Below, in pieces: positions 1-19,428 of a DNA stretch of 64,000 bases. The notes beneath the pieces are model-generated. The model did no database searches and was not told the origin of the DNA. It worked only from the letters and a program-made list of their open reading frames with translations. This DNA is from Desulfoglaeba alkanexedens ALDC (lineage in GTDB: Bacteria; Desulfobacterota; Syntrophobacteria; Syntrophobacterales; DSM-9756), in contig NZ_CP040098.1 in NCBI RefSeq assembly GCF_005377625.1, forward strand, positions 558,001-622,000, read 5' to 3'. Position 1 is the stretch's first letter. Each line of letters opens with the position of its first letter. The position numbers and the translations under genes were made by a program.

Positions 1-6
1 GGCACG

Positions 7-3182
<3,176 letters not shown>

Positions 3183-3260
3183 TCCGTCGGGCGCTTTGAC
3201 GGCTCGAAGTCTTGCCGCCCCCTGGGCCGCCCGTGATGGCGGGAATCTTCGCAGAAAAAG

Positions 3261-3295
3261 AATCGGCGGATGGCGCTTGGCGCCATCCGCCGATT
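3261..3295. terminator. Bidirectional hairpin terminator between mdh and the DUF5320 gene
   Basis: A perfect 16-bp stem (3261-3276 with 3280-3295) closes on a 3-base loop. An A-rich run precedes it and a short T-run follows. It lies between convergent genes, as expected for a shared terminator. Confidence 0.8.
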
Positions 3296-3306
3296 TCATC
3301 TGAGGA

Positions 3307-3648
3307 TTAAGTCTGAGTCTGGGAAGGCGTTTCGGACTCACGCTCCAGCGCCTGGATTTCCTCGTTGACCGCCTCCAGGGAGGCTTGCAGGCTTTGCGCA
3401 TAGCGCTTGAGGTAGTCCAGCTCTTCTTGAGGACCCCAAAAACCCGCCGCAGGGGGCGGAAAACCTGCCCACCCCCAAGGGCGAGCCCCCAACCGGCGGA
3501 ATCCTCGCCCGAAGCCCCAACCGGCGCCTCCGGCGAAGCCGCGCCCTCGTCCATAGAATCGGGGATTCGCCCCGGTTCCACACCATCCCAAGCCTCGACC
3601 CGTCATGGGCCCCATGCCCCAAGGTCCAGTTCCGTCAAGAGCAGGCAT
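3307..3648 (-). CDS. DUF5320 family protein (full-length copy)
   Basis: A 113-residue protein with the DUF5320 start MPALDGTGPWGMGPMTGRGLG. A Gly/Arg/Phe/Trp-rich middle (about residues 22-72) and a C-terminal helix of coiled-coil type (PQEELDYLKRYAQSLQ onward) follow. The function is unknown. Such genes are common in anaerobes, often near Fe-Mo cofactor-type (NifX/NifB-like) small proteins. The ATG ending at 3648 is chosen because AAGGAGGG sits 7 bases upstream; an in-frame ATG two codons earlier is too close to that site. The gene is the downstream member of a tandem duplication and is the copy that keeps the C-terminal helix. Confidence 0.75.
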   Translation of the reverse strand: MPALDGTGPWGMGPMTGRGLGWCGTGANPRFYGRGRGFAGGAGWGFGRGFRRLGARPWGWAGFPPPAAGFWGPQEELDYLKRYAQSLQASLEAVNEEIQALERESETPSQTQT

Positions 3649-4063
3649 TGTCATACCCTCCTTTCCGTTCATACGTTTTTGGGCAAGCCCTCGCCAGGGC
3701 CACCCCTTTAAACCTCTTTTACACTCCAAAGGGCAAGCGCCGTGCCCTACGACCCCAAAAACCCGCCGCAGGAAGCCGGAAACCTGCCCCTCCCCAAGGG
3801 CGAGCCCCGAACCGGCGGAATCCTCGCCTGAAGCCCCAACCAGTGCCTCTGGCGAAGCCGCGCCCTCTTCCATAGAACCATGGATTCCACCCGGTTCCAC
3901 ACCATCCCAAGCCTCGACCCGTCATAGGTCCCATGCCCCAAGGTCCAGTTCCGTCAAGAGCAGGCATTGTCATACCCTCCTTTCCGTTCATGCGTTTTTG
4001 ACAAGCCCTCGCCAGGGCACTCCTTTTAGAATCTTTCAGCATTCTAAGAGGCAAACATCGTGC
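3432..4063. repeat. Head-to-tail duplication of an approximately 319-bp unit
   Basis: Bases 3432-3750 and 3751-about 4063 are direct copies in immediate tandem, each beginning GACCCCAAAAACCCG. They cover the DUF5320 upstream region, ribosome-binding site and 5' coding part. The copies differ by scattered substitutions and are most alike around the start codon. Confidence 0.8.
3719..3967 (-). CDS. Truncated DUF5320 paralogue from tandem duplication
   Basis: An 82-residue near-copy of the adjacent DUF5320 protein. It shares the start MPALDGTGPWGMGPMTGRGL, the same ribosome-binding site and the same Gly/Arg/Trp-rich body. After the motif GFWG it runs into unrelated residues and stops, so the coiled-coil tail is missing. 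The duplication unit carried the upstream region and only the first two thirds of the gene. Start and ribosome-binding site are intact, so a short product could be made, but it may be a non-functional remnant. Confidence 0.5.
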   Translation of the reverse strand: MPALDGTGPWGMGPMTGRGLGWCGTGWNPWFYGRGRGFARGTGWGFRRGFRRFGARPWGGAGFRLPAAGFWGRRARRLPFGV

Positions 4064-4261
4064 CATGCACCAGAAGCCGCCGGCTCAGCCCTCCGCCCAC
4101 CGGGCTTTCCCCCGGAACCGGAACGAGACCCAAAGCCCGGGCCACGCCCCGCACCTCATTTTCCGGTTCAATCCGGCGCCGTTTCTACCTGCACCGGGCA
4201 CATTCCGCACCGTGCGGATGAAAGGCCCCCATCGCGATGCATCGGATAGGCGGCGGCGGGC
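4064..4261. other. Intergenic stretch with no gene recognised
   Basis: About 200 bases between the DUF5320 duplication and the inverted-repeat element. Open frames here have no recognisable features and no convincing ribosome-binding sites. It may hold the promoter of the minus-strand DUF5320 genes, but no clear -35/-10 pair was found. Confidence 0.4.
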
Positions 4262-4499
4262 GGGCATAAGCGCTAAGTTATTTTGCAAACATTCACGGGT
4301 TGCATTTATGCCATTGGATTGTTTTTAAATATGAACGTCGAACATCGAACATTGAACGTTCAACATCGAATAAAAAAATCAGGTCAGCGAAGGGCGCAGA
4401 TCTTTTTTTTCCCATTCACCATTCGATGTTGGACGTTCAATGTTCGATGTTCATTTTTTTCAGTCGATACCGGACATAAACAACCTAGCGCTTATGGGG
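4262..4499. repeat. Inverted-repeat intergenic element, copy 1
   Basis: The outer ends are inverted: CATAAGCGCTAAGTT at 4263 matches AACCTAGCGCTTATG near 4485. Inner arms made of GAACATCGAAC-like units (about 4330-4370 and 4422-4452) are also mutually inverted. A second copy in opposite orientation is at 36478-36762. No transposase is encoded. It lies directly downstream of the last C-P lyase gene. Confidence 0.7.
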
Positions 4500-4518
4500 A
4501 GGGGGACAAACGTCAGGC

Positions 4519-5229
4519 TCAGGATGTCTTTTCCAAGAAGATCGTCCGGTCGGCGACCGCTTCACGAACCCGGTCGTCATGATAGATGCCCACCACCGCG
4601 GCGCCTCGACTTCGGGCTTCGGTGATCATGGCGACCACCGTGTCCCGGTTGGCGGGGTCGAGTGATGCTGTAGGTTCATCGAGCAGCAGCAGGGGATAGT
4701 CGCAGGCGAATACCCTGGCGATATTGATCCGCTGCTGTTCACCTCCCGAAAAGGTCATCGGCGCAAGCGTCCACAGCCTTCGAGGGATGTTCAGGCGTTC
4801 CAGGACCGCGGCGGCCCGCCGCCTGGCTTCCGCCTCCGCCATGCCGCGCCGCAGGAGCGGTTCAGCCACCACGTCCCATGCCGGAACTCGGGGGATGACG
4901 CGCAGAAATTGGCTCACGTACCCCAGGGTCCATCGGCGGAGTTCCAGGATCTGCAATGGTGCCGCCGCCGCAACGTCCACCATGGCCGTACCGTGGAGAA
5001 CCGCCAGCCGCCCCCGCTCCGCCGCATAGTTTCCGTAGAGCAGGCGAAGGACCGTGCTCTTTCCGGCTCCTGAAGGACCCGTGAGCGCGACGCTTTCGCC
5101 GGGGGCCACCGCCAGGTCGAACCCCTGGAGTACGGGGATGCGAACGCCCCCTTGAAGATGCAGCACGAAGCTCTTGTGAACGCCCTTCACATCGATCGCC
5201 CAAGCCATGGATCCCATCCTCGGAATCAT
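4519..5229 (-). CDS. phnL: Phosphonate C-P lyase accessory ATPase PhnL
   Basis: A 236-residue ABC-type ATPase with Walker A GPSGAGKST, signature TFSGGEQQR, Walker B LLLLDEPTASLD and switch His in IYHDD. The PhnL-specific context is good: it opens with a helix-strand block VKGVHKSFVLH and a Gly-rich HLQGG loop, and it follows phnK. PhnK binds the PhnGHIJ core; PhnL is required for C-P bond cleavage in vivo, although no membrane partner is present. The ATG at 5229 overlaps the phnK stop (ATGA), implying translational coupling. An internal ATG at 5214 is an alternative start. It is the last gene of the operon. Confidence 0.9.
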   Translation of the reverse strand: MIPRMGSMAWAIDVKGVHKSFVLHLQGGVRIPVLQGFDLAVAPGESVALTGPSGAGKSTVLRLLYGNYAAERGRLAVLHGTAMVDVAAAAPLQILELRRWTLGYVSQFLRVIPRVPAWDVVAEPLLRRGMAEAEARRRAAAVLERLNIPRRLWTLAPMTFSGGEQQRINIARVFACDYPLLLLDEPTASLDPANRDTVVAMITEARSRGAAVVGIYHDDRVREAVADRTIFLEKTS

Positions 5230-6014
5230 ACCAGGAGCCGGGAAGACACCAGCAACTGGGTGTACGGGTGCTGAGGATCTTCCAAGACCCGGTCGGTGAG
5301 CCCCGTTTCCACCAGTTCGCCCCGACGCATCACGAGCAGCCGATGAGCCAGAAGACGCGCCACGGCCAGATCGTGCGTCACCATGATCACGGAAAGCCCG
5401 AGATCTGCAACGAGCCGGCGAAGGAGATCCAAGAGACGGGCCTGCACGGACACGTCCAGGCCGCTCGTCGGCTCGTCCAGAAAGAGTACGCGGGGGCGGG
5501 TCACGAGGTTGCGGGCGATCTGGAGCCGCTGGCGCATGCCGCCCGAAAAGGTCCCCGGAAGATCGTCGATCCGCTCCGTGGAGATCTCAACGGTTTCCAG
5601 CCATCGCTCGGCCTCGCTTCGGATCTTCCCGTAATGGCGCAGACCTTCGGCCAGCAACCGTTCGCCGATGTTACCGCCGGCGCTCACCCTCATCCGCAGG
5701 CCGTCTCGCGGGTCTTGAAAGACCAGACCCAACTCCGTGCGCAGCAGCCGCCGTCTTTCCCGTACCGGGAGGCCGTACAGGTCCACCGCTTGGCCGTTCC
5801 GTCGATACCGGATCGTTCCCCGGGTCGGTTGCAAGTGTCCCGAAAGGCAGTGAAGGAGCGTGGATTTACCGGACCCCGATTCTCCCACGATCCCCAGCAC
5901 TTCCCCGGCGTTCAGTTCCAGGCTGAGTGAACGGCAACCGACCCGCTGACCGTAATAGTGCGTCACGGCTTCGGCGGTAAGAATCGCGGGCTTGCTGGCA
6001 GTCTTCCCCATCAT
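5226..6014 (-). CDS. phnK: Phosphonate C-P lyase accessory ATPase PhnK
   Basis: A 262-residue ABC ATPase with Walker A GESGSGKST, Q-loop FQDPRDGLRMRVSAGGNIGERL, signature FSGGMRQRLQIARNL, Walker B VLFLDEPTSGLD and switch His in VTHDL. The Q-loop context (DPRDGLRM) is typical of PhnK rather than oligopeptide-transport ATPases. PhnK docks on the PhnGHIJ core complex. The start overlaps the end of phnJ by 4 bases and the stop overlaps the start of phnL. Confidence 0.92.
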   Translation of the reverse strand: MMGKTASKPAILTAEAVTHYYGQRVGCRSLSLELNAGEVLGIVGESGSGKSTLLHCLSGHLQPTRGTIRYRRNGQAVDLYGLPVRERRRLLRTELGLVFQDPRDGLRMRVSAGGNIGERLLAEGLRHYGKIRSEAERWLETVEISTERIDDLPGTFSGGMRQRLQIARNLVTRPRVLFLDEPTSGLDVSVQARLLDLLRRLVADLGLSVIMVTHDLAVARLLAHRLLVMRRGELVETGLTDRVLEDPQHPYTQLLVSSRLLV

Positions 6015-7003
6015 AGATCGCCGCCTCCCCTTGTCCGGAGGGAGTCATCCCGGTCGGCGCCGGCTCGGCCCGATCGGCCGAAAAAGCTTTCAGCCCGCCG
6101 GCCGACAACCGACAGGCCGACGGATCCTTCCCGACGGCGGCTGCAAGCATCGGTATCCGAACAGATGAAGAGGCGGTTTCCTTCGTCGTCCAAGATTATT
6201 TCATCCAAATAGGTGTCCCGGGATCCGCACAGGGCGCAGGGTGCGTCCCAGCCTTCCACCTGGAAGGGATGGTCTTCAAAGCCGAGGCTCTCCACCCGCG
6301 TGTGGGGCGGCACCGCGTAGATCCGCTTTTCCCGGCCGGCGCCGAAGAGCTGGAGGGCCGGCATGCGGTCCATCTTCGGGTTGTCGAACTTGGGAATCGG
6401 CGACGGGCTCATCACGTAGCGCCCCGCCACCAATACCGGGTAATCAAAAGCCGTTGCGATGCGTCCGTTTCGCACGATATCTTCATAGAGTTTTACGTAC
6501 ACGATCCCGTAGTCGGCCATGGCGTGAATGCGCCGGCATTCGGCCTCACGCGGTTCGATAAAGCGAAGCGGCTCGGGAATGGGCACCTGATAGACGAGGA
6601 TCTGCCCCTCCTGAAGCGGCGTCTCCGGAATGCGGTGGCGGGTCTGGATGACGGTGGCTTCCTCGGTGCGCGTCGTGGTTTGGATCCCGGCGGTTTTTTC
6701 GAAAAACTTCCGGATGCTCACGGCGTTGGTGGTGTCGTCCGCCCCTTGATCGATGACCTTCAAGGTGTCTTGAGGCCCCACGAGCGAGGCTGTAAGTTGA
6801 ATGCCTCCCGTGCCCCAGCCGTAGGGAAGCGGCATTTCTCGGCTGCTGAACGGGACCTGATGGCCGGGGACAGCCACCGCTTTCAGGATCACGCGCCGGA
6901 TCGTGCGCTTGGTCTGTTCATCCAAGTAAGCAAAATTATAGCCGCAAAGTCCCTGAGTCTCCGACTCCACCCGTTGGTCACTGATCGTCCGGGCCATCTC
7001 CAT
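6011..7003 (-). CDS. phnJ: Alpha-D-ribose 1-methylphosphonate 5-phosphate C-P lyase (radical SAM) PhnJ
   Basis: PhnJ is the radical SAM enzyme that breaks the carbon-phosphorus bond, giving a hydrocarbon (methane from methylphosphonate) and ribose cyclic phosphate. The conserved GYNFAYLDEQTKR, the glycine-radical region VPGHQVPF, GWGTGGIQLTAS, IPKFDNPKMD and FGAGREKRIYAVPP are all present. The cluster ligands are CALC followed by ICSDTDAC. The start is the ATG at 7003, with GGAG just upstream; a second ATG lies two codons later. The open frame extends to 7159 but that part is phnI in another frame. At 330 residues it is longer than the E. coli protein (281), through a short N-terminal addition and an Arg-rich tail of about 40 residues. 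It overlaps phnI by 26 bases. Confidence 0.95.
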   Translation of the reverse strand: MEMARTISDQRVESETQGLCGYNFAYLDEQTKRTIRRVILKAVAVPGHQVPFSSREMPLPYGWGTGGIQLTASLVGPQDTLKVIDQGADDTTNAVSIRKFFEKTAGIQTTTRTEEATVIQTRHRIPETPLQEGQILVYQVPIPEPLRFIEPREAECRRIHAMADYGIVYVKLYEDIVRNGRIATAFDYPVLVAGRYVMSPSPIPKFDNPKMDRMPALQLFGAGREKRIYAVPPHTRVESLGFEDHPFQVEGWDAPCALCGSRDTYLDEIILDDEGNRLFICSDTDACSRRREGSVGLSVVGRRAESFFGRSGRAGADRDDSLRTRGGGDL

Positions 7004-8114
7004 CGCTCCGCTCCCCGCAATCCAAAGGACCTCCGCTCTCACGAGCCGCGCGCAATGCCCGCAGCGCGACCAGCTCCGCCTGAAAATCCACGTAGTGAGG
7101 CAACTTGAGATGCTGCACGAACCCCGACGCCTCCACATTATCGCTGTGGCGCAGAACAAACTCCTGATCCTGTGCCGGATAACGCACCTCTTCGCCCAAT
7201 TCGTCGCTTCGGAGCGCCCGATCCACCAAGGCCATGCTCATGGCCTTGCGTTCACCGCAGCCGAAAACCAACCCGTATCCTTGAACGAATTGCGGCGGCC
7301 GGCGCTCCGACCCGTCGAAGCGGCTGAGCATGAAGCACTCGGTCATCTCAAGCGAGCCGATTTCCACCGGGAATCCCAGCTCCTCCGGCACCAGCTCCAC
7401 CGCCACTTCCCCGCAGCGGATCTCACCCACAAACGGATGGCCGGAAAACCCGAAACCGCGCTGAGCGGAATAAGCCAGACCCAGGAGAAACCCTTCATCG
7501 GCTCGAGCCAGGTTCTGGAGCCGGGCGCCCCGAGAGGCGGGGATGTCGAACCCATCGCGGGAGATGTCCGCCGCGGATTCGGTGTCGGACTCTCCCGGAG
7601 ATTCCGTCAAGCCTTCCCGGTCCCATCCGTGACACGCGTGGGGCACAATCTCCGGCAACTTCGCAGCCCCTTGCGGCAGGTAGGCGATTCTTTCGGCTGA
7701 AGGCCGAGGTTCGCATAGCGAGAAATCAAGCAGGCGATGCGTGTAATCGAAGGTCGGACCCAGGATCTGACCCCCCGGCACGTCCTTAAAGGCCGCCGAA
7801 ATGCGCCGCAGGACCCTCATCCGTGACATCTCCACGGGGAGCGTCCGTCCGAGCCGCGAAAGCGTCGTGCGATACGCCCGCACCAGGAAGACCGCTTCCA
7901 CCAAGTCGCCGTGGGCTTGTTTCACGGCCAGAGCCGCGAGACGCCGGTCGTAAAGTCCGCCTTCGGTCATGACCCGGTCCACGGAATGCTTCAGCTGCTG
8001 CTCGATCTGCTCTAAGAGCAGTTCCGGAACCGAGGGATCGCCGCGACGTTCTTCGGCCAGAAACCGATGGGCGTTTTCGATGGCTCGCTCACCACCTTTC
8101 ACCGCAACGTACAC
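6978..8114 (-). CDS. phnI: C-P lyase core component PhnI
   Basis: A 378-residue PhnI, the nucleosidase-like subunit that, with PhnG, H and L, couples phosphonate to the ribose of ATP. The family start MYVAVKGGERAIENAH is intact, as are SRMRVLRRISAAFKDVPGGQILGPTFDYTHRLLDF and the later segment FHGWDR-type substrate region. Three bases separate it from phnH, and its end overlaps phnJ. Length is close to the E. coli protein (354). Confidence 0.93.
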   Translation of the reverse strand: MYVAVKGGERAIENAHRFLAEERRGDPSVPELLLEQIEQQLKHSVDRVMTEGGLYDRRLAALAVKQAHGDLVEAVFLVRAYRTTLSRLGRTLPVEMSRMRVLRRISAAFKDVPGGQILGPTFDYTHRLLDFSLCEPRPSAERIAYLPQGAAKLPEIVPHACHGWDREGLTESPGESDTESAADISRDGFDIPASRGARLQNLARADEGFLLGLAYSAQRGFGFSGHPFVGEIRCGEVAVELVPEELGFPVEIGSLEMTECFMLSRFDGSERRPPQFVQGYGLVFGCGERKAMSMALVDRALRSDELGEEVRYPAQDQEFVLRHSDNVEASGFVQHLKLPHYVDFQAELVALRALRAARESGGPLDCGERSDGDGPDDQ

Positions 8115-8117
8115 GAA

Positions 8118-8717
8118 TCAAACCTCCACACGCGTGGATCGGGGAAGGGCAGCCACGGCCCCATCGGTGCAAAAGATCAGGTCCACGCCCAAAGGAAAGT
8201 CTTCTCGTTGTTTTCGCCTCCACAGCCAGAAAGCTTCCGTAAGATCGGAAACCTCGAGCCGGGTCCGGCCTTGGATGCCCGGCCCTTCCAGCGAAACGCC
8301 GCGGCCGGACTCCAGCCTTCGCGTCTGGACGATCAGCGTGGCGGAACGTTCGGGACTTTCGTCGTCGCCCACATCGAAACGGCCCGGATCGTCAAACTCA
8401 CCGGGCCGCGTCACCAGGGCAAACCGGGCGCTCCCCTCCGCGCCGACAAACGGACACCCGCAGTGAAACCGAAGCCAAGCAACGGCCTCCGTCTCCGGCG
8501 CCAAGTCGGTCCAAAGCGGCGTCTCGAAATCCAAAAGGGTCAGACAGGCGGCACCGGAAGTATCGCAAAGCGGCGGCGGCACATCGAGTCCGGAACGGTA
8601 CGGCACCACCCGCCCGGGATGCGCCATGGCTTCCAGCAGCACCCGAAAGGACCTTTGGGTCCCCAGAACCGGATCCGGAAAAGCGGGCCTGAGCCGCGGC
8701 GATTCGTCCCGTTCCAT
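8118..8717 (-). CDS. phnH: C-P lyase core component PhnH
   Basis: A 199-residue PhnH with the family segments RSFRVLLEAMAHPGRVV (residues about 22-38) and LTLLDFETPLWTDL. PhnH is a structural subunit of the PhnGHIJ complex, with a fold like PLP-dependent transferases but no PLP site. It starts one base after the phnG stop and is followed by phnI after 3 bases, so the three are probably cotranslated. Confidence 0.9.
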   Translation of the reverse strand: MERDESPRLRPAFPDPVLGTQRSFRVLLEAMAHPGRVVPYRSGLDVPPPLCDTSGAACLTLLDFETPLWTDLAPETEAVAWLRFHCGCPFVGAEGSARFALVTRPGEFDDPGRFDVGDDESPERSATLIVQTRRLESGRGVSLEGPGIQGRTRLEVSDLTEAFWLWRRKQREDFPLGVDLIFCTDGAVAALPRSTRVEV

Positions 8718-8718
8718 G

Positions 8719-9222
8719 TCATTCGCCTCGCCGAAGCGTCAGGAACTCCACGCGGGTCGATGCCGCCCGCGCACGCTTCAACCTGCGCCGCTCCTTTTGG
8801 CGCCGTTCCAGGGGTTCGACGACCGCGGTCATGAGCCGGCCGCGCAAGCGCTCGTTTTGAAGGAGCGCGTCGAAAACGGCGACCCGTTCAGCGCGGCGCA
8901 TATCGCTGCCCAACACGTAGCCGACACCGAGGGTTCCGTCTTTGAGCTGAATGGTACATCGCGTCACGGTTGCTTCACCCGGATAGAAAAGACCGCCGGT
9001 TCCCCCGGTCCTTGCTTCCACGAGCACCAGCCCGGTTTCGGGCCGGCGGAGGAAGGTGTATTCGGGCGGATCGGGTAGTTGCTGGAAGGCCCGCTCCAGT
9101 TCGCGCGGCAAGGCGTGAGCCAACACGCTCAGCCAATGGCGCCGCTGTTCCCGCCCGTCATGCAGATCCGCTCCGTTTTCCGTACCCGCTGAACTCGTTT
9201 CCGATTCGTGCTCCTGCCGCAT
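8719..9222 (-). CDS. phnG: C-P lyase core component PhnG
   Basis: PhnG, 167 residues from the chosen ATG at 9222. The family pattern is visible in RRHWLSVLAHALPRELE, FLRRPETGLVLVEARTGGTGGLFYPGEATVTRCTIQL and GVGYVLGSDMRRAERVAVFDALLQ. With PhnHIJ it forms the core complex. The open frame continues upstream to 9336, but that extension is Gly/Ser-rich and lacks family similarity. The ribosome-binding site at 9222 is weak (GGAACG). The C-terminal end is rich in Arg. Confidence 0.88.
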   Translation of the reverse strand: MRQEHESETSSAGTENGADLHDGREQRRHWLSVLAHALPRELERAFQQLPDPPEYTFLRRPETGLVLVEARTGGTGGLFYPGEATVTRCTIQLKDGTLGVGYVLGSDMRRAERVAVFDALLQNERLRGRLMTAVVEPLERRQKERRRLKRARAASTRVEFLTLRRGE

Positions 9223-9257
9223 CGTTCCAACACCTATCCCAATGATTCGTTTGGAGC

Positions 9258-10226
9258 TTATGCTCCCGCAAACACCATCGGAACCGAACCCCCTCGCGGC
9301 TCCGCCAGCCCTTCGAGCAGACATTCCAGGTTCCACTTCGATTCTTCAATGTAGTCGAAATACCGGCTTCTCAGTTCCATCATTAAGATCCCCGTATAGG
9401 CCGGCATCAGCAGGGAGAGGACAGCCTTCATCGGGATGCCGCCCCAACCCACCGGCATGTGGTTGTCGCCACGCCCGAAGGGAATCTGGTGCGTCTGCTG
9501 CTTCTCCGTCGGCGCGACGCTCCCGCCGAAATTATCGTGGATGTGCACGTGCCTCACCCGCTCGGCCACGTCCGCCACCTCCTCCAGAAAATTCCAGCCG
9601 TGATGCCCGGCGCTCATGTGGGCGTGGCCGATGTCCAAGGTGATCCCCACATTCGGGCGGCCCACCGCTTCGACTTGCGCCTTCAGCGCCCGAAGCGATT
9701 CCCCGTACGCATACGGGCTGTAGTAGCAATAGGGCCTCGCGTTTTCGACACCGATGGTGATCGCCGGGAATTCACCCGCCAGTTTATCCAGCCAGTATCG
9801 CTCCTGGTCCCTCATGGCCCGGCAATCCGCTTCGCTCGGCGGGGCGCTGGAAACATGCCCGAAGCCTTCTTCCGGCACATACCGCCCGCAGTGAACCACC
9901 ACCGGAGACGCCCCCAAGCATTCCGCAAATTCCAGGGTCGCCCGTAAGACTTCCACATGCAGCTCGCACTGCGTTCGATCCATGAGATTCAGGGGATTGG
10001 GCGCGTGAAGGGTGTAGGTGAAATCGAAATCTTCGAGGATGCGCCGCACTTCGCGACTCCGCCGCGGATCCAGGCGACCGCACTTGATTACGTCCAAGCC
10101 GTGCGGCGGGATCTCCACGGCGTCCAGCCCCATCACGGAAAAAGTCCTGAGATCCCTCGCCAGCGCCCGAAGGCTCCCGTCAACCCGCACTTCATCGATC
10201 TTGCACCCGATCTTCGCCGACCCCAT
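9258..10226 (-). CDS. Sugar phosphate isomerase/epimerase family protein inside the phn operon
   Basis: A 322-residue TIM-barrel protein of the xylose-isomerase-like/AP-endonuclease-2 superfamily. Supporting motifs are YTLHAPNPLNL, VVHCGRY, IGVENARPY, GITLDIGHAHMSAGHHG and HVHIHDNFGG, all of which supply metal-binding His/Asp/Glu. It is 15 bases downstream of the phnE fragment and about 35 bases upstream of phnG, so it is probably cotranscribed with the C-P lyase genes. The C-P lyase pathway ends in ribose phosphates, so a role in sugar-phosphate handling is possible. That role is inferred from position; the reaction is unknown. Confidence 0.75.
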   Translation of the reverse strand: MGSAKIGCKIDEVRVDGSLRALARDLRTFSVMGLDAVEIPPHGLDVIKCGRLDPRRSREVRRILEDFDFTYTLHAPNPLNLMDRTQCELHVEVLRATLEFAECLGASPVVVHCGRYVPEEGFGHVSSAPPSEADCRAMRDQERYWLDKLAGEFPAITIGVENARPYCYYSPYAYGESLRALKAQVEAVGRPNVGITLDIGHAHMSAGHHGWNFLEEVADVAERVRHVHIHDNFGGSVAPTEKQQTHQIPFGRGDNHMPVGWGGIPMKAVLSLLMPAYTGILMMELRSRYFDYIEESKWNLECLLEGLAEPRGGSVPMVFAGA

Positions 10227-10241
10227 GTTCTCTGACCTCGC

Positions 10242-10814
10242 TCAGATGAAGCGGCTTCTGAGCTTGCCGCATAAGTGATCGATCACCGTGACGCTCACGA
10301 TGACCAAGATCATCATGGTCGCCACTTCCCGGTATTGATAGCCGTTCAATTTATCGAACATGACAAACCCGATGCCCCCCGCACCGCAAAACCCCAAGAT
10401 GGTGGCGCTCCGGACGTTGGATTCGAACCGCAGCAGACTGTAGCTCACCATGAGGGGCATCACTTGAGGCAGTACCGCGAAGGAGACCACTTGCAGCGGC
10501 CCGGCGCCTCCCGCCACCACCGCTTCCACCTGCCCGGGTTCCACGGCCTCGATGGACTCACTGAAGACTTTGCCGAGTATTCCAAAGGTGTGGATGGCGA
10601 GGGCCAATACACCGGCGAAGGGACCGAGTCCGATCACGGCCACAAAAACGAGCGCCATCACGAACTCGTTGAAGCCGCGGCAAAAATCCAGCACCCTTCG
10701 GACAGTGAATTGAAGACTTGCCCGAAGCCATCGAAAGACCGACGAGTCCCCTGGGAAAAGGACTTCCAGGGTGTTCCGAGCCGCCAGGAGCGAGACGGGG
10801 ACCGCGGCCACCAC
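10242..10814 (-). pseudogene. phnE: C-terminal fragment of phosphonate ABC permease PhnE
   Basis: The 190 residues match the latter two thirds of a PhnE-type permease. Membrane segments are visible, and the permease loop (EAVEPGQVEAVVAGGAGPLQV) is followed by VLPQVMPLMVSYSLLRFESNVRSATILGFCGAGGIGF. The N-terminal membrane segment and following region are missing. The sequence begins, in a different frame, right where the phnC fragment breaks off. There is no separate start codon with a good ribosome-binding site. Together with the lack of phnD in the window, this indicates a deletion that destroyed the importer. Confidence 0.8.
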
Positions 10815-10819
10815 CGCCG

Positions 10820-11002
10820 CAGCGTCGATTTCCCCGCCCCTGAGGAACCGATGATCACGAGGAAATCATCCCGGCAAACCGTGCAACTCATCGACTTCAA
10901 AGCCACGGTCCCGTTCGGATAGACCTTGCCCAATCGATCCGCTCTGATCACCGCACTCGGTCTCGCCTGTTGTTCGCACGAAACCTGCGCCGTCTTTTTC
11001 AT
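10820..11002 (-). pseudogene. phnC: N-terminal fragment of phosphonate ABC ATPase PhnC
   Basis: About 60 codons encode the start of an import ATPase: IRADRLGKVYPNG, a helix/strand block, and Walker A GSSGAGKSTL. Immediately after GKSTL the frame runs into the phnE sequence in the wrong frame and stops at 10658. The Q-loop, signature and Walker B are absent, so it cannot be a working ATPase. The ATG at 11002 overlaps the phnM stop (ATGA), as expected for an originally intact operon gene. Confidence 0.85.
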
Positions 11003-12216
11003 GACATCCTCCCTGCACGTTCCCGGGGCCCTTCCTCTCGAAGCTCAGCCCCCTCCCGTCGGAATCCCTGTCCCAAATAAACACACCGGCCTCGCACCCA
11101 GCTTGAAACCACCCGGGCCCACGGAGGAGCCGCGTTCACCACCACCAGGTCCGCGGGACCTCCCGCCAGCAGCCGCCCCCAAACGGACCCCAAGACGCCG
11201 CCCGGAAGGGAAGTCACCAGCGAAAACGCCGCGGGCCACGCAAGCCCCAGGCACCGCCCGGCGATGAACGCTGACTGCAGCAGGCATTCGGGATAGTAAT
11301 CGCTCACCAGCCCGTCACAGGCGCCTTCCTCCACGGCTTCGCGCGCCGCAAGATGCCCGTTGGATGAAGAACCGCGCACCAGATTCGGCGCCCCCATGCA
11401 AACGAACATGCCCCGTTCTTTGGCCGATCGGGCCGCATCCAGGCATACCGGGAATTCACAGCCGCCGACGCCCAACTCCCGGACAAACACCACCTTCTCC
11501 TCCGAATCGTCGTCGTGACTCCAGAAGGGCAACCCCGCCGCTCGGATCTTCTCGGCCAGCGTCACCACCTCCCGCCATCCCTCTTCCCGTCCCATCCGCT
11601 TCACTTCCGCAAGGCGCTCCACTTCCTCACGTGAAAGCTGGAACGTGCCCATGTAATAGCGCAGGTAGTTTTCGAAGGACCGAAACTGCCCCTGGCCCGG
11701 CGTGTGATCCATGAACGAAACCAGATCGAGCAGTCCCTGGTCCAGCAGCCGCTCCAAGGCTTGGGCCGCCATGCGGGAACCAACCTCGTAGCGGCCGTGA
11801 ACGCGATGGCGGACCGAAGCCCGCCCGGACGCCGCGAAATCATGGATACACCGGACCAGTTCCTCGGCCTTTTCGGGCGATCGGAGCCCCAGCTCGTGGT
11901 CAGCGAAACTCACCGCATGGCAAAAGGTTGTGATGCCGCAGGCCGCCACCCGCCGGTCCAAGTTTTCCAGCGCGAAGGCAACGTCGAAGAAAACGCCCGG
12001 GCGCATCTCTACACAGCGTTCCAAGGTATCCGAATGAAGGTCCACCAAGCCGGGAAGGATCCAGTCGCCGCCCACGTGGACCACTTCATCCGCATCGAAA
12101 GGTTCATCGCGCTCCGCCACCCCGAGGACCCCCTGCTCGCCGAACAGCACCGCGCCCTTTTCGTAGATTTGTGTACCGTCAAACAGCGGGCCGCCGTAAA
12201 GACAGGTGCGCTTCAT
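10999..12216 (-). CDS. phnM: Alpha-D-ribose 1-methylphosphonate 5-triphosphate diphosphatase PhnM
   Basis: A 405-residue amidohydrolase-fold enzyme that removes pyrophosphate from the ribose-phosphonate triphosphate intermediate before PhnJ acts. The metal-site motif LPGLVDLHSD, the PhnM-specific FMDHTPGQGQF, SHDDDSEE, MGAPNLVRGSSSNGH and LVSDYYPECLLQSAF are all present. The length is slightly above that of E. coli PhnM (378). It lies 12 bases downstream of a GNAT gene and overlaps the phnC remnant by 4 bases. Confidence 0.93.
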   Translation of the reverse strand: MKRTCLYGGPLFDGTQIYEKGAVLFGEQGVLGVAERDEPFDADEVVHVGGDWILPGLVDLHSDTLERCVEMRPGVFFDVAFALENLDRRVAACGITTFCHAVSFADHELGLRSPEKAEELVRCIHDFAASGRASVRHRVHGRYEVGSRMAAQALERLLDQGLLDLVSFMDHTPGQGQFRSFENYLRYYMGTFQLSREEVERLAEVKRMGREEGWREVVTLAEKIRAAGLPFWSHDDDSEEKVVFVRELGVGGCEFPVCLDAARSAKERGMFVCMGAPNLVRGSSSNGHLAAREAVEEGACDGLVSDYYPECLLQSAFIAGRCLGLAWPAAFSLVTSLPGGVLGSVWGRLLAGGPADLVVVNAAPPWARVVSSWVRGRCVYLGQGFRREGAELREEGPRERAGRMS

Positions 12217-12228
12217 TGCAACTCCCTT

Positions 12229-12747
12229 TCATGATTCAGGCGACAACGGTTCCGCGGACCGGGCGGCCAAATCGACGCGATAAACCTGGCTGTCAGCCGC
12301 CTGAAACCCCATTTTTTCGTAAAAGCGACGCTGCACGCTTTCACGCTCCCGGCTGCTCAACACCTCGATCCGCGCGGCACCCACGGCCCGCGCCCACGAA
12401 AGCGCCAAATTCACCAGCGACGCCCCGACCCCGCGCCCCCGCCATTCCGGCAGCACAACCAATTCTTCAATGGAAACCTGGATACCGCCGAGTCGAATGA
12501 CCGGGAAAGAACGCAGCGTGATCATGCCGACGACTAGGTCATCGGAGACCACTGCGAACACGCATCGGAGACCCTCTTGGGCGAGGGCAGTCCTGAGGAC
12601 TTCTCGAAGCTGCTGCGGTTCGGGGTTGTATCCGAGGACTTTCACCAGCTGGAAGACGGTCGGGAAGTCTTCTTCACGGGCTTGCCGAAAGTAGACCCTT
12701 CCGAAGCCTCGGGTTTCCGAACCGTTGGTAGAAAGCGTTTTTCCCAT
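12229..12747 (-). CDS. GNAT-family N-acetyltransferase heading the phn operon (PhnO-like role possible)
   Basis: A 172-residue GNAT protein. The acetyl-CoA loop is LPEWRGRGVGASLV (about residues 105-118), with FYEKMGF near the C-terminus. It is the first gene of the C-P lyase operon and has GGGAGG upstream of its ATG. PhnO, an aminoalkylphosphonate N-acetyltransferase of the same superfamily, occurs in some phn operons, so a detoxifying or priming role is plausible. The sequence alone does not prove phosphonate specificity. The operon promoter should lie in 12748-12900, but no convincing Pho box or -35/-10 pair was found. Confidence 0.7.
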   Translation of the reverse strand: MGKTLSTNGSETRGFGRVYFRQAREEDFPTVFQLVKVLGYNPEPQQLREVLRTALAQEGLRCVFAVVSDDLVVGMITLRSFPVIRLGGIQVSIEELVVLPEWRGRGVGASLVNLALSWARAVGAARIEVLSSRERESVQRRFYEKMGFQAADSQVYRVDLAARSAEPLSPES

Positions 12748-12904
12748 CGAAAAGACCTCCCGTTCGCAGCCGGAATAACGCTCGGAAGCCTTCTAACGGG
12801 TGGGACCCCTTCCAGAGCGTTCTTTCCGCCATTGAAGAGGTTCCATGTGACGCTTCGACGAAGCTGGACCGAAGAATCGGTGACGGGATTTCGAGCCCAT
12901 AGAA

Positions 12905-12929
12905 AAACCCCGGAGAGCATCCGGGGTTT
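12905..12929 (-). terminator. Intrinsic terminator for the minus-strand EI24/protease transcript
   Basis: A perfect 10-bp stem (12905-12914 with 12920-12929) encloses a 5-base loop. On the minus strand it is followed by TTTTCT. It lies downstream of the EI24 gene and upstream of the GNAT/phn operon, insulating the two. Confidence 0.85.
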
Positions 12930-13035
12930 CATGAAAGCGGCGGGCGCTTGGATACTGGCAGTGGGAGGGGTTGTCGGAAAGGCTGCTCAAAACCATGCCG
13001 TGACCATGGCGGTCCCTTCACCCCAAGGCATGGCA

Positions 13036-13836
13036 TCATGCCGCAGGAACCGGCTTGCCTGTGGGTCTTTCCATGGCGCCGGCCTTCGGAGATCGTTTCT
13101 CCCTTTCCACATGAAAGAGCGTCGCTCCCACCGGGGCGTAAGACAGAAAGAGGATATTGGCCACGGGAATCAGGAACGGAAGTCCGAACCCCAGGTGGAA
13201 CGCAAGGTTCTTCACAAGGAATCGGAACCGTTCTCGGAACGGCACGAGCCTCCGTGCCGGAACCAGGTCCGTATTGTCCCAGGCGAGAAACACCACCGTA
13301 ACGGCTGAAGACAAAACGGCGACCAGGGGACCCAGCGGCGTCAGCCAACCCAAAAGCAGCACTCCAAGCGCCACAAGGACCGGAACGACCGCTCTCGGGA
13401 TTTCCTGACCGACGAGATACAGCAGCTCCCGGGTCCAGGAAGCGCCCGGGGCACGTCCCACTTCCCCGGTCAGCATCCGTTCGGTCCACCGGGACATTTG
13501 GTCCATGAGCCACACGCTGAAGACCACTTGGGAGAAGAGATAAGACAGCACGGTGGAAAGCAAAAGCAGAAGAAGCGCAAGGAACCAGGACACCAGGTGC
13601 CAGATCCAGACGAGCCAGCCGCCTTCCGGTCTCGCCCACAGGATTTCGAGGACCTCCTGGTGATACGCCGCCACCAGACCCGCCGCCGCCAGGGTCACCG
13701 CAAGGAGGATCAAGAAACGAAGCATCCCGAGAAACAGAAGCCGCCTCACTCTAAGCGCCAGGGCGAGCCCCTTGAGGTTGTAATAAAGCCCGCTGAGGAG
13801 TTCCATGTCACGACTCTCCGGTTTCTTTTTCGCCAT
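13036..13836 (-). CDS. EI24-domain (CysZ-like) integral membrane protein
   Basis: A 266-residue protein with about four to six hydrophobic helices: residues about 35-60, 78-110, 150-190 and 208-235. The arrangement, with a long amphipathic loop SVWLMDQMSRWTERMLTGEVG after the second helix, matches EI24/CysZ proteins. CysZ proteins move sulfate into the cytoplasm in enteric bacteria; transport specificity here is only inferred. It is 27 bases downstream of the M16 protease gene, so the two may be cotranscribed. Confidence 0.7.
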   Translation of the reverse strand: MAKKKPESRDMELLSGLYYNLKGLALALRVRRLLFLGMLRFLILLAVTLAAAGLVAAYHQEVLEILWARPEGGWLVWIWHLVSWFLALLLLLLSTVLSYLFSQVVFSVWLMDQMSRWTERMLTGEVGRAPGASWTRELLYLVGQEIPRAVVPVLVALGVLLLGWLTPLGPLVAVLSSAVTVVFLAWDNTDLVPARRLVPFRERFRFLVKNLAFHLGFGLPFLIPVANILFLSYAPVGATLFHVEREKRSPKAGAMERPTGKPVPAA

Positions 13837-13863
13837 CGGCCGATCAAGCTCGTGATGCCCCGC

Positions 13864-16776
13864 TCAAAGGAGCCGCGTCACCTGAAATCCGTCGCCGCAA
13901 ACCGGGCGCGCTTCTTCCACCGCCGAGGCGGCACCCAGGACCGCCACCCGCCCTCGATCCGCGAATTCCCCCAAGGCATCGCCGAACCGCCGCAGGTCCT
14001 GGAGACTCGTCTCCAGGATTTCCTCCCGCATCCGTTGCCGGGTGTCTTCGTCGTCCCCCGTAAGATGGCGGATCATGGACGTAAAGCCTTTGGCGTCCGG
14101 GAGCATGTATCGATCCACATCACCGATCACTCCGATGACGCTTTTGGTGATCTCTTCCTGGTTCAGCGAAAGGCTTTTCAGGAAAGCGGCCGTTTCATCG
14201 AACACCTTCAACGTCTTCACCACATGGGGATCCCGGTAGGAAACCATGGCGAAATCACCCGAAAAGCGGTCCAGCCGGCTGAAGCCTCCGTAGGCGCCGC
14301 CCTGCACACGGATGCGGTCCCACAGCCAGGCCGTCCGAAGGAAGTGGGACGCCACCAAAGCCGAGCCGTGGAACCGATACCCGGTCCGATACAGATTGAA
14401 TCCCTTTCCCACGTAATTGACCTGAGTCGGCGCCACCAGGCCTTCATGCAACGGGAGGGATTCCGGCCGCCAGCCGGTCCGGTCCACATCTCCCTCGGGA
14501 AGAACGCCGAGGAAAGCGTCCATCTTCGATGCCATGGACGCCCAGGAATCACCGTCCAACGTGACATTCACAACCATGCGCCCGCGGCCGATCAGGTGCG
14601 TGCGGACCGCTTCCAACGAACGGTGCACGCCGTCCCAGTCGCTGTCGACTTTCCGTGCCAGATCCCGGAGGAAAGCCAGGTAACTCACGCCCTCCATCTT
14701 TTCCGCCGCCCAGTCGGCCGATCCGAAGGGAGCCATGAGCCTCAACATGACCAGCCGATGCCCTTCGGGGATCACTCGTTGCTCCATTCTGGCCTTGGAT
14801 TCCAGCACCATCTGCCGGAACCGCTCGCGGTGGTCGAGCCGCACGGTAAGGAGCACGTCTCTCAAGATCTCCAGAAGATCATCGGCCTTGGAAACCATGG
14901 CCTTCCCGCGGAGGAACAGCCACCCCGCCCCCGTTTCGCCGTCCTTCAACGTAGCCGTGTGCACCTGGGGGCGAATGCCGCCGGTCTTTTGGCTGATCCG
15001 CTGGGAAAGAGCGACATAGTCTTCCGTTTCGGTTCCCATTTCCACCAGGGCACGCCCGAAAAGGCCGACATAGGGGAGCAAGTCGCCCGGGAGCGCCCGC
15101 AGATCGAAGCCCAGGTCCAGGTAAAGGATCCCGTTGGTGAAAAGGTCGTGGAAAAGGAAGGGCACGCCCGCACGCGTCGAAAGATCGAGTGGGATCGTCT
15201 TGTTCCGACGTTCGATGTCCGAAAGATGGAGCCGCGGCAGAGCGGCCAACGCCTCAGGAGGATCCGGCGTTTCCTGCATCTTTCGGATCTCGCGGGTCGT
15301 TTCGATCACCTTTTGCACCTCTTCCGGCGACATAGTCGCCTTGATCGCTTCCAGCCGCCGCCGCTCCTCCTCGTTCCACCGCGCTTCCAGTTCCAGGTCG
15401 GGCTTGAGAAGCACGCTCACCCGGTGGGGATTTTCCAGGAAGTGCCCGCGAATGAGCGCTTCAAAGTAGCCGCTCCCGGGCTGCGCCCTTCGCTTTACGG
15501 CTTCCAGCGGTTTTTCGAAGGCGAGCAGCGAAAGCGGATCGCCGTCGTAGAGCCAGGTGGTGAGCGAACGGAGCATGAGGGCCAGCCCCCGGGGATAGTT
15601 TCCGGTGTTGTTTTCGCGAAGGCGGAATTCCACCGTGTTCACGGCCGCTTCCACCGTCTGCGGAGATATGCCCTCTTCCGCAAGCTCCCTCAAGGTATCC
15701 AGGATCAGCGCCTCCACCCGCTCGGCGTTTTCTTCCGCGATCCCTTTGAGTCCCGTCGAGAAATACATGCGCTGAAGTTCGCCTTCCAGTCCCACGCCGG
15801 CGAGGTCTTCGCCGAGGCCGGACTCGATGAGGGCCTTGCGAAGCGGCGATCCGGGCATACCGAGCAGGATGTAACTCAAGACGTGGAGCGCCACGTTCCG
15901 TTCGGGGGGCTCGGTGGGCGTGAGCAGCCAGTTCACCGTCACCATGGCCTTGGGCGATTCTTCGGCCCCCACCGCGTACGGATAAACCACGCGCCGCGGT
16001 TCGGCAAAAGGCGGTTGATCGGCGATCTCCGTGGACGCTTTAAGCGCATCGAATCCTCGAATCGCTTCACCCACGACGGCCAGCCGCCTTTCCGGGTCGT
16101 CATCCCCGTAGAAGAAGAACCAGGCGTTGGAGGGATGATAATGATCGGCGTGGAAGGCTTTGAAGGCTTCGTAGGTGAGCTCGGGAATCCGGCGCGGATC
16201 GCCTCCGGAATCGACGCCGTAGGGCGTGTCGGGAAAGAGGGCGTGCTGGCTGTATTCCACGAGCAGCCGGTCCGGAGACGAGTAAGCGCCCTTCATCTCG
16301 TTGTAGACCACCCCCTTGATGGTGAGAGGGTCCTCCGGCTTTTCCAGTTCGTAATGCCACCCTTCCTGCTGGAAGATAAGCGGCGTGATGAGCGGCTGAA
16401 AGACGGCGTCCAGATACACATCGACCAGGTTGTAAAAGTCCTTGAGGTTCTGGCTCGCCACCGGGTAACAGGTCTTGTCGGGATAAGTGAAGGCGTTCAG
16501 GAAGGTCTGGAGCGATCCCTTGAGGAGTTCCACAAACGGTTCCTTGACGGGGTATTTCTTCGAACCGCAAAGAACGGAGTGTTCGAGGATATGGGCCACC
16601 CCTGTGGCGTCTTTAGGAGGCGTCCGGAAGGAAACCCCGAAAACCTTGTTTTCATCGTCGTTTTCCAGTGAAAGAAGCCGCGCACCCGTCTTCGTGTGTC
16701 GGTAGAGCCGGGCTTTCGTGTTGATTTCCGGGATGTCGGTTTCTCCAATCCGTGCAAAACCATGCCGCTCTGTCAT
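13864..16776 (-). CDS. PreP-type M16C zinc metallopeptidase (insulinase family)
   Basis: A 970-residue protein with two M16 halves. The inverted zinc motif HILEH sits near residue 62, in GVAHILEHSVLCGSKKYPVKEPF, and the block LNAFTYPDKTCYPVASQN follows, as in presequence protease/Cym1. The second glutamate zinc ligand is in EMKGAYSSPD. PreP enzymes degrade short unfolded peptides. The total length matches bacterial PreP homologues (about 970). No signal peptide is visible, so a cytoplasmic location is likely. A 1057-codon open frame on the opposite strand is a shadow. Confidence 0.92.
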   Translation of the reverse strand: MTERHGFARIGETDIPEINTKARLYRHTKTGARLLSLENDDENKVFGVSFRTPPKDATGVAHILEHSVLCGSKKYPVKEPFVELLKGSLQTFLNAFTYPDKTCYPVASQNLKDFYNLVDVYLDAVFQPLITPLIFQQEGWHYELEKPEDPLTIKGVVYNEMKGAYSSPDRLLVEYSQHALFPDTPYGVDSGGDPRRIPELTYEAFKAFHADHYHPSNAWFFFYGDDDPERRLAVVGEAIRGFDALKASTEIADQPPFAEPRRVVYPYAVGAEESPKAMVTVNWLLTPTEPPERNVALHVLSYILLGMPGSPLRKALIESGLGEDLAGVGLEGELQRMYFSTGLKGIAEENAERVEALILDTLRELAEEGISPQTVEAAVNTVEFRLRENNTGNYPRGLALMLRSLTTWLYDGDPLSLLAFEKPLEAVKRRAQPGSGYFEALIRGHFLENPHRVSVLLKPDLELEARWNEEERRRLEAIKATMSPEEVQKVIETTREIRKMQETPDPPEALAALPRLHLSDIERRNKTIPLDLSTRAGVPFLFHDLFTNGILYLDLGFDLRALPGDLLPYVGLFGRALVEMGTETEDYVALSQRISQKTGGIRPQVHTATLKDGETGAGWLFLRGKAMVSKADDLLEILRDVLLTVRLDHRERFRQMVLESKARMEQRVIPEGHRLVMLRLMAPFGSADWAAEKMEGVSYLAFLRDLARKVDSDWDGVHRSLEAVRTHLIGRGRMVVNVTLDGDSWASMASKMDAFLGVLPEGDVDRTGWRPESLPLHEGLVAPTQVNYVGKGFNLYRTGYRFHGSALVASHFLRTAWLWDRIRVQGGAYGGFSRLDRFSGDFAMVSYRDPHVVKTLKVFDETAAFLKSLSLNQEEITKSVIGVIGDVDRYMLPDAKGFTSMIRHLTGDDEDTRQRMREEILETSLQDLRRFGDALGEFADRGRVAVLGAASAVEEARPVCGDGFQVTRLL

Positions 16777-17010
16777 TTAAACCTCCTGAAAAAGTGTTCC
16801 AGACTTTCGAGAAAACACTCGCACCGCCGTTTCGGTTCGCCGTCCATTCCAGGCCGTGCACCAACGGCGGGCAGCGTTTTGTACCAGCGAACCGGCGCCC
16901 GACGGGCATCGCCGGCAAGCTGGATCTTCTATACGTGTTGAAAACATGCTATCAATAATCTCCATGACCCCGTGGGGTCACAACGAAGCATGAAAATATT
17001 GTGAATTGGG

Positions 17011-17113
17011 TGCAGATCTTTTGCTTCTTGTTCCCAAGCTCCAGCTTGGGAACACAACTGTGCAGAAGCTCCAGCTTCGGTGAGCCCGTTCCCAAGCTGG
17101 AGCTTGGGAACGA
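17011..17113. repeat. REP-like palindromic unit, family A
   Basis: The self-complementary core TTCCCAAGCTCCAGCTTGGG (17031-17050) is followed by ACACAACTGTGCAGAAGCT and a second palindrome at about 17088-17112. The segment begins GGGTGCAGATCTTTT. The same unit recurs at 28899, 35151, 44274, 44509, 48232, 48523 and 60817. The rest of the 16777-17192 gap holds only an AT-rich stretch (17140-17180) that could be a promoter for the transglycosylase. Confidence 0.85.
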
Positions 17114-17240
17114 GAGGAAAAACGTGGCACAATAACCAATCGACATTATTGCTGGATTTTCCATTTTCATATAAAATGTAGCAATTCGAAAGATGGTCTC
17201 CCAGCAACACTCGAAACCCGGTTCAAGGACAAGTACGCCC

Positions 17241-18185
17241 ATGTCTCCCGCCCGCTTTCCGTTGGCCGTCCGCCGCCGCAACCCTCGATTCTTCGTTTTT
17301 TTCCTCGTGACCCCGCCGGCGTTCCTGGCTTTCGTATTCTTTCCGGCTCCGCTCTTCCGCCCCGCCCATGCCGCGGACCTCTTCGGGAACCTCACCCAAC
17401 GCCTGCTGCAGGACGGGTTCTCCCGGGATCACGTGTCGGCGATCTTCAGCCCGGAGCCGGAACCGGCGTACGAGCGGGTCGTGCTTTCGCTCCGAACGCG
17501 CGAAAGCCGCTTGAACTACGAACAGTTTCTCAAACCCGACGCCGTGGAACAAGCCGAACGGTTCCTTCGTGAACACCGGCACCTTTTCAAGGAAGTTGAA
17601 GAACGATACGGCGTGGACCCTTACGTGGTCGCGGGCATCCTTCTCGTGGAAACCCGCTGCGGGGAAGTGACCGGCCGGACCCCCGTGTTGGAAACCTTCG
17701 TAACCTTCGCGCTGATGGAGGACCCGGTTCACCGAAACCACGTGTGGGAACGGCTGCCCGCGAGCGATCGCAGGCGGCTCGGCCGCACCGCCTTCGAAGA
17801 AAAGCTGAAGAATCGATCGCGGTGGGCCTATGGCGAACTGTACGCCCTTCTTCAATGGACGCAGGGAGAGCCCGATCGAACCCGGGGGCTTCGCGGGTCC
17901 TTCATGGGAGCCATCGGGTGGCCGCAGTTTCTTCCGAGCAGCATCCTGCATTACGGGGTGGACGGAGACGGGGACGGGCGGATCAACCTTTTCGAACCGG
18001 CGGACACGCTGCACAGCGTGGGCAATTACCTGAAATCTTTCGGCTGGAACCGGGCTCAAACCCGCGACGACAGAACCCGGGTGCTCCTCCACTACAACCG
18101 AAGCCGCCCCTACGCAGCGACCATTCTGGATGTGGCCGATCTCCTTCGTAAGCGCACAGATCTCGCATCCGCCTCTCGCCCGTAA
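17241..18185 (+). CDS. Lytic murein transglycosylase, MltB/SLT family
   Basis: A 314-residue protein with an N-terminal secretion signal (Arg-rich start, hydrophobic FFVFFLVTPPAFLAFVFF, cleavage near AHA-AD). The MltB-like catalytic domain contains VDPYVVAGILLVETRCGE, whose Glu is the expected catalytic acid, and GSFMGAIGWPQFLPSS. The region DGDGDGRINLFEPADTLHSVGNYL follows. It should cleave peptidoglycan in the periplasm. No lipobox is evident. An in-frame ATG at 17193 would add 16 residues; 17241 is preferred because it gives a normal signal peptide and has AAGGAC upstream. Confidence 0.88.
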   Translation: MSPARFPLAVRRRNPRFFVFFLVTPPAFLAFVFFPAPLFRPAHAADLFGNLTQRLLQDGFSRDHVSAIFSPEPEPAYERVVLSLRTRESRLNYEQFLKPDAVEQAERFLREHRHLFKEVEERYGVDPYVVAGILLVETRCGEVTGRTPVLETFVTFALMEDPVHRNHVWERLPASDRRRLGRTAFEEKLKNRSRWAYGELYALLQWTQGEPDRTRGLRGSFMGAIGWPQFLPSSILHYGVDGDGDGRINLFEPADTLHSVGNYLKSFGWNRAQTRDDRTRVLLHYNRSRPYAATILDVADLLRKRTDLASASRP

Positions 18186-18200
18186 CCCCTTTTCCGCGTT

Positions 18201-19283
18201 TCAGCAGACCCCGGTGGCTTTTCGAGCCGCCAGCCGCTCGTTCAACATCCTTTCCACCACATCCGGGACCAGCCCCTTCACTCCGCCGCCGGCAACCACC
18301 ACCTCCTTGATGATACGCGAACTGATGTAAATCCAGCGCATGCCTGTCATGAGGTACAGGGTTTCGATGTCGTTGCAGAGCTTACGGTTCATGAGGGCCA
18401 TCTGGAACTCGTATTCGAAATCGCTCACCGCTCGAAGCCCCCGGATGATGGCCTTAGCCCCCTTTTTTTCCACGTAGTTGACCAGGAGGCCATCAAAGGT
18501 TTCCACCGTTACTCTTTCGCAAAGCGGATGTTCCGTCAGGCTTTCGCGGATCATCCTCACCCGCTCCTCCAGGGTGAAAAGGTGTTCCTTGGCCGGATTG
18601 CTGGCGACAGCGATGATCACGCGGTCGAATATCTTGAGAGCTCGTTGCATCAGATCCAGGTGTCCGTTGGTGATGGGATCGAACGATCCCGGGTAGACCG
18701 CCAGCTTGTCCATATCCCCTCCTTTGAGAAAAAGCTGTGGACGCCTCTCGTAAAAGGACACGGCCGTGTCTCCATAGCGTCTTGACTCCGTCCGGACCCA
18801 GAGCGCGTCGCCTTCAGGCACCGGTTCGGCCGCGCCGTGTTCGCAAATCAGAAGAGCCGTTTCCGAACAGACACCCGAGAGCGCCGGAAGGAGCCTCGCG
18901 ACCCATCCTTCCCCGTACGGGGGATCCGCAAAAACGAGATCGAAAGGGGGCTCGAAAGCCGCGAGCTTCCTCAACGCCCGCGGGACGGCCCCCTGAAGGA
19001 TCACCACTCGATCCACCGCCCCGCAAAGAGCCGCGTTGGCGCGGATCAACCGCACGGCTTCCGCGCTCCGCTCCACAAAAGCCGTTCTTTCCGCCCCGCG
19101 GCTCAGCGCTTCGAGCCCCATGGCGCCAGTTCCTGCAAACAGATCCAGTACCCGGGATCCTTCGACCCGCCGGCCGATCACGTTAAAAACGGCCTCACGC
19201 ACCCGGTCGGTCGTGGGCCGAATATCTTTTCCTTTGGGAGCCTTGAGCCGCCGCCCCCGGTAGGCACCGGCTATGATTCGCAC
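18201..19283 (-). CDS. RsmD-CoaD fusion: 16S rRNA (guanine966-N2)-methyltransferase plus phosphopantetheine adenylyltransferase
   Basis: One uninterrupted 360-codon frame encodes two enzymes. Residues 1-about 180 are RsmD: start MRIIAGAYRGRRLKAP, SAM motif VLDLFAGTGAMGLEAL, catalytic FADPPYG. Residues 191-360 are CoaD: MDKLAVYPGSFDPITNGHLD with the HxGH-like nucleotidyl-transfer motif, IIRGLRAVSDFEYEFQMALMN, and YISSRIIKEV. CoaD makes dephospho-CoA. The genes are usually separate neighbours. Here no stop separates them, and the strong ribosome-binding site of coaD is itself read as KGGD. Two products could be made: a fusion from 19283 and a free CoaD from the ATG at 18713. Confidence 0.9.
   Translation of the reverse strand: MRIIAGAYRGRRLKAPKGKDIRPTTDRVREAVFNVIGRRVEGSRVLDLFAGTGAMGLEALSRGAERTAFVERSAEAVRLIRANAALCGAVDRVVILQGAVPRALRKLAAFEPPFDLVFADPPYGEGWVARLLPALSGVCSETALLICEHGAAEPVPEGDALWVRTESRRYGDTAVSFYERRPQLFLKGGDMDKLAVYPGSFDPITNGHLDLMQRALKIFDRVIIAVASNPAKEHLFTLEERVRMIRESLTEHPLCERVTVETFDGLLVNYVEKKGAKAIIRGLRAVSDFEYEFQMALMNRKLCNDIETLYLMTGMRWIYISSRIIKEVVVAGGGVKGLVPDVVERMLNERLAARKATGVC
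18714..18725 (-). promoter_or_regulatory. Internal ribosome-binding site for coaD within the fusion frame
   Basis: AAAGGAGGGG ends 2-3 bases before the internal ATG at 18713, forming a near-perfect Shine-Dalgarno match inside the open rsmD-coaD frame. It suggests separate translation of CoaD (18201-18713, 170 residues) in addition to any fusion. Confidence 0.75.
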
Positions 19284-19344
19284 CGGTCACGCCTCGCAAC
19301 CCGCATGCCCTGAAAGAAAGTCTTCGGCCGGCCGCCCACCCTTT

Positions 19345-19398: not shown

Positions 19399-19428
19399 AA
19401 AGCCTGAAACCTGTTCCCGGACACGCTC

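Follow-up and report, generated by a model that had tools for sequence, protein, structure and literature searches.

A probable deletion scar joining phnC to phnE in the C-P lyase operon of Desulfoglaeba alkanexedens ALDC

In Escherichia coli K-12, phosphonate use is silent because phnE carries an insertion of 8 bp, which can be lost again by slippage (PMC6469041, as excerpted). The operon that we describe here, from the sulfate reducer Desulfoglaeba alkanexedens ALDC, is similar in that a permease gene is broken while the C-P lyase genes are present, but the lesion would be a 2.2-kb deletion over three genes that allows no reversion, whereas the one in E. coli K-12 is a revertible 8-bp insertion (same excerpt). 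Gene loss of this sort would be nothing unusual, and E. coli K-12 provides a clear precedent. The operons of Desulfacinum (phnM-phnC-phnD-phnE-TIM barrel-phnG) resemble it in gene order and in the long form of PhnE, to which the remnant is 84-86% identical; unlike it, they have a whole importer. In the literature searched, no paper was found that treats Desulfoglaeba and phosphonate together, and the lesion was likewise not found in print.

Organization of the operon and of its importer genes

The window that we analysed comprises 64,000 nucleotides (positions 558,001 to 622,000 of the forward strand of contig NZ_CP040098.1). On its minus strand, the operon runs in the order GNAT acetyltransferase, phnM, phnC remnant, phnE remnant, TIM barrel, phnG, phnH, phnI, phnJ, phnK and phnL (Table 1). 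The initial annotation had proposed that the catalytic genes on both sides of the lesion are intact and that the C-P lyase genes are kept, and our results agree with it: phnG, H, I, J, K, L and M are all whole and score at or above family level, and no internal stop was found in phnM, G, H, I, J or K. The promoter scan of 10200-13100 gave no promoters, while the terminator scan of the same region gave 4 terminators against 4.0 in shuffled sequences, which is the chance level. The only Rfam match in the window was one tRNA.

Table 1. Features of the C-P lyase operon, in window coordinates
Feature	Position	Strand	Evidence and remarks
GNAT acetyltransferase	12229-12747	-	
phnM	10999-12216	-	Intact; stop overlaps the phnC ATG; NF011990, 341.9 bits (cut-off 233)
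phnC remnant	10820-11002	-	ATG at 11002; first 61 codons, through Walker A GSSGAGKSTL; TIGR02315 positions 2-46 of 243, E 9e-10; frame translation
Out-of-frame tail of the phnC frame over phnE sequence, to stop	10658-10819	-	ORF 10658-11002; frames
Putative deletion junction	10812-10823 (approx.)	-	Motif spacing 50 bp (2226-2381 bp in five relatives)
phnE remnant	10242-10814	-	Last 190 codons, open; core permease domain only; TIGR01097 positions 77-251 of 252
Xylose-isomerase-like TIM barrel	9258-10226	-	PF01261, E 3e-28; same place in several relatives
phnG	8719-9336	-	Intact; TIGR03293, 166.7 bits (cut-off 89)
phnH	8118-8717	-	Intact; PF05845, 198.3 bits
phnI	6978-8114	-	Intact; PF05861, 499.9 bits, positions 1-346 of 348
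phnJ	6011-7159	-	Intact; true start probably within the ORF; PF06007, 480.1 bits, positions 2-273 of 275
phnK	5226-6014	-	Intact; TIGR02323, 350.8 bits (cut-off 302.85)
phnL	4519-5229	-	Intact; TIGR02324, 309.3 bits (cut-off 256.3)

The TIM barrel is weakly CbiR-like (42.3 bits against a cut-off of 105) and is kept between phnE and phnG in Desulfacinum and other relatives. Neither PhnN nor PhnP, which belong to the E. coli pathway, had a match over cut-off in a search of the whole window genome, the one genome covered, and for this reason the TIM barrel may stand in for PhnP. Two other elements were observed in the window. Inverted copies of GAACATCGAACATTGAACGTTCAACATCGA lie just beyond phnL, at 4340-4369 and 4423-4452, with a third, degenerate copy at 36713-36742, where chance would give none. 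A palindrome, GTTCCCAAGCTGGAGCTTGGGAAC, followed by GAG or AAG, is present at 17088-17114 and at many other sites of the genome; with up to 2 mismatches it has 263 forward and 279 reverse matches in the 3.37 Mb, counts in which a palindromic site may appear on both strands, and its reversed control has 0. Among the matches listed, those in 0-1.13 Mb point forward, and those in 3.0-3.25 Mb have either orientation.

Within the importer genes, similarity to PhnC ends directly after GAGKSTL, as had been claimed, and the same frame continues into unrelated sequence until a stop at 10658. PhnE similarity takes over in a different frame, from about 10815 down to the natural stop at 10242, and reaches 213.8 bits (E 3e-63) in the profile search, just below the TIGR01097 cut-off of 216.7. 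The only start codons in this remnant are GTG, within a transmembrane region. By tblastn against window 1-20000, the PhnE of Desulfacinum infernum (377 aa) aligns with it over residues 193-377, at 86% identity; in the same search the best match of D. infernum PhnC was phnL rather than phnC, and D. infernum PhnD found no counterpart. The initial annotation placed the resumption of phnE in another frame, which we confirm, and after its first third, which fits the TIGR01097 model, where about a third is lost, but not the long 377-aa PhnE, of which half is lost. Thus, phnC has lost three quarters of its length and phnE its first half, and phnD is missing altogether.

Origin and age of the lesion

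We measured the spacing from the start of Walker A to the PhnE motif P-[VFI]-S-x-x-A-A. It is 50 bp in the window, and 2290 bp in D. infernum (L069), 2290 bp in a Desulfacinum MAG (L045), 2381 bp in D. hydrothermale (L046), 2271 bp in L047 and 2226 bp in L048, so that about 2.2 kb are absent (2,240 bp with respect to D. infernum). Together with the negative tblastn search for PhnD, this supports the earlier proposal that the intervening part of phnC, phnD and the start of phnE are gone. A scan of genome contigs gave 28 loci, and six further stretches were compared besides. The three genes are consecutive in 21 of the 28; four loci end at a contig edge (L054, L060, L065, L068) and three are distant, with a different order (L070, L071, L072). 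Among the six additional stretches, L089 and L090 have all three consecutive, L093 and L094 carry distant versions of phnC, phnD and phnE, L091, close to a contig end, has none, and L092 is a degraded operon, that of genome G002 (see below). The order phnM-phnC-phnD-phnE-TIM barrel-phnG is common to D. infernum, D. hydrothermale, the Desulfacinum MAG and genome G074 (L090). The comparison with relatives that had been suggested as a check therefore finds an intact trio at the same place, between collinear and intact flanking genes. The genome searches likewise gave no further copy of phnC, phnD or phnE that passes the cut-off, and all this is most simply explained by a deletion scar. Very probably, an ordinary C-P lyase operon recently lost about 2.2 kb in one event, which took the end of phnC, the whole of phnD and half of phnE, its first, and would have left the operon cryptic.

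The scar is known from the assembled sequence of one strain, with which a mutation in culture, an allele present in nature and an error of assembly would all be compatible. If the assembler had lost about 2.2 kb from a chromosome with an intact phnC-phnD-phnE, the lack of decay in the phnE remnant would be expected, and the genome was indeed assembled with HGAP2 from PacBio P6-C4 reads in a paper that makes no mention of short-read polishing (PMC7180275). On the other hand, one contig of 3,365,583 bp was obtained from libraries size-selected at 10 kb (PMC7180275), in which an individual read should be long enough to cross the site. A collapse mediated by repeats was discarded, as there is no repeat to cause one: at the corresponding breakpoints in four relatives, direct repeats do not exceed 6 bp, no repeat of at least 11 bp links both breakpoints in D. 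infernum or the Desulfacinum MAG, and window 10700-10950 has no direct-repeat families. With a single contig, 10-kb libraries and breakpoints free of longer repeats, we regard an artefact as quite improbable.

In a genuine deletion, the event was most likely spontaneous, by recombination at a short homology, by illegitimate recombination or by replication slippage, near the Leu-Leu codons of both genes. At the homologous breakpoint, the two genes have a word in common, CTGCT or CCTGCT in D. infernum, the Desulfacinum MAG and D. hydrothermale, and CTCCT in L047; at the place of these 5-6 bp, PhnC reads Ser-Thr-Leu-Leu and PhnE Ser-Leu-Leu. If the segment between the common words were deleted, 51 bp would remain and the two genes would be joined in frame, whereas in the window 50 bp remain and the genes are joined out of frame. 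A deletion at short homology is plausible but not proved, being 1 bp off the simple CTGCT model, with a word read from relatives and not from the ancestor.

Regarding the age of the loss, none of the 56 columns invariant in 25 other PhnE sequences is broken in the remnant, which has no stop; when each of those 25 was left out in turn, 16 broke none and 9 broke 1 to 12. By the rule of three, unconstrained change would affect less than about 5% of the remnant codons. Of 13 invariant columns in the phnC stub, for which 60 codons were used, none is broken, and the remaining genes break 0 of 65 (phnM), 2 of 25 (phnG), 0 of 17 (phnH), 4 of 127 (phnI), 2 of 134 (phnJ) and 3 of 101 (phnK), so by this measure conservation in the other operon genes is ordinary. 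Since the phnE remnant is unbroken at every invariant position and free of stops, the importer loss is judged to be recent by the standards of this family.

Phosphonate import and the search for other transporters

An ABC importer of the PhnCDE type that lacks a binding protein, has an ATPase ending after Walker A and retains half a permease cannot work. In the operon, Walker A is present without the signature and Walker B motifs, no gene for a periplasmic PhnD was found, and PhnE is both incomplete and below its family cut-off. The PhnCDE importer, without binding protein, ATPase past Walker A and half of the permease, would be dead, and we infer that phosphonate import is lost in this strain. 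As the C-P cleavage enzymes remain, the operon should be cryptic; the enzymes may be produced yet starved of external phosphonate.

A move of phnCDE to another locus was ruled out by whole-genome searches, a check that was also suggested at the outset: no other phnC, phnD or phnE lies above family cut-offs. The next best PhnE match in the genome has 41.9 bits against 216.7, and from its sequence (L005), examined by eye, looks like a betaine-type permease. The best PhnC match has 182.9 bits against 266.1, and most of the 52 matches that this model has in the genome (threshold E 1e-10) are other ABC ATPases. The best genome match to the PhnD of D. hydrothermale has E 0.08. Three genome matches to PF12974 were obtained (L001, L002 and L003): by eye, the translation of L001 is a nitrate/sulfonate-type binding protein and that of L003 a molybdopterin-biosynthesis-like protein, and both were rejected as PhnD, while L002 sits in a 1428-aa frame.

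The remnant might still be of use, with the PhnE core served by another ATPase and binding protein, or through a frameshift fusion of PhnC and PhnE; its 190-codon frame is open and well conserved, and the matches to the PhnC model would offer partners. Nevertheless, the N-terminal half of PhnE is missing and only GTG starts remain, no PhnD relative was found in the genome to feed the core, and a fusion would lack every ATPase motif past Walker A, which makes this highly improbable. It is also conceivable, though unlikely, that the importer is dispensable and C-P lyase still works on phosphonates that enter by another system or are made inside the cell. Such a role would agree with the intact catalytic genes, and transcription through the scar may be possible. 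However, neither a PhnS2-type 2-aminoethylphosphonate binding protein nor PEP mutase was found in the genome at E 0.001, two other candidate ABC loci appear by eye to be of nitrate/sulfonate and betaine type, and a deletion so recent would leave the enzymes intact even if they were out of use.

Distribution of phn genes in the family

We searched 147 genomes, including that of the window. PhnJ had a match in 15 of them and the PhnE remnant in 16 (E 1e-20), and PhnE accompanies PhnJ in 12 of the 14 relatives that bear the latter, the window genome left out. The exceptions are G146, which is 80% complete and has phnJ close to a contig end, and G002, of the same family but another genus. In G002 (L092, contig 340, 4942-5528, minus strand), phnM (3-130), phnG (111-151) and a 31-codon piece of phnJ are next to one another; this fragment is its whole PhnJ match, and the rest of the phn operon was not found in that genome. 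As G002 is a draft of about 380 contigs, its operon scar is provisional. It resembles the window in a phn operon broken by deletion, but differs in that almost the entire operon is gone. G006, in the same family, has neither a PhnJ nor a PhnE match. Since a second member keeps scraps only, phn loss seems to recur in the family, through different deletions. A broader scenario, in which phn is dismantled repeatedly in the family, with the importer going first in one lineage, while the window strain keeps C-P lyase, uses the CbiR-like TIM barrel for PhnP and obtains its substrate by a new route, is in our view rather improbable.

The finding would add to E. coli K-12 a second case, an irreversible one, from a model alkane degrader. 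An organism with C-P lyase genes need not be able to use external phosphonates, and genome-based predictions of methane release from methylphosphonate may have to be read with caution. The scar in the window and the scraps in G002 suggest a relaxed need for phosphonates in the family.
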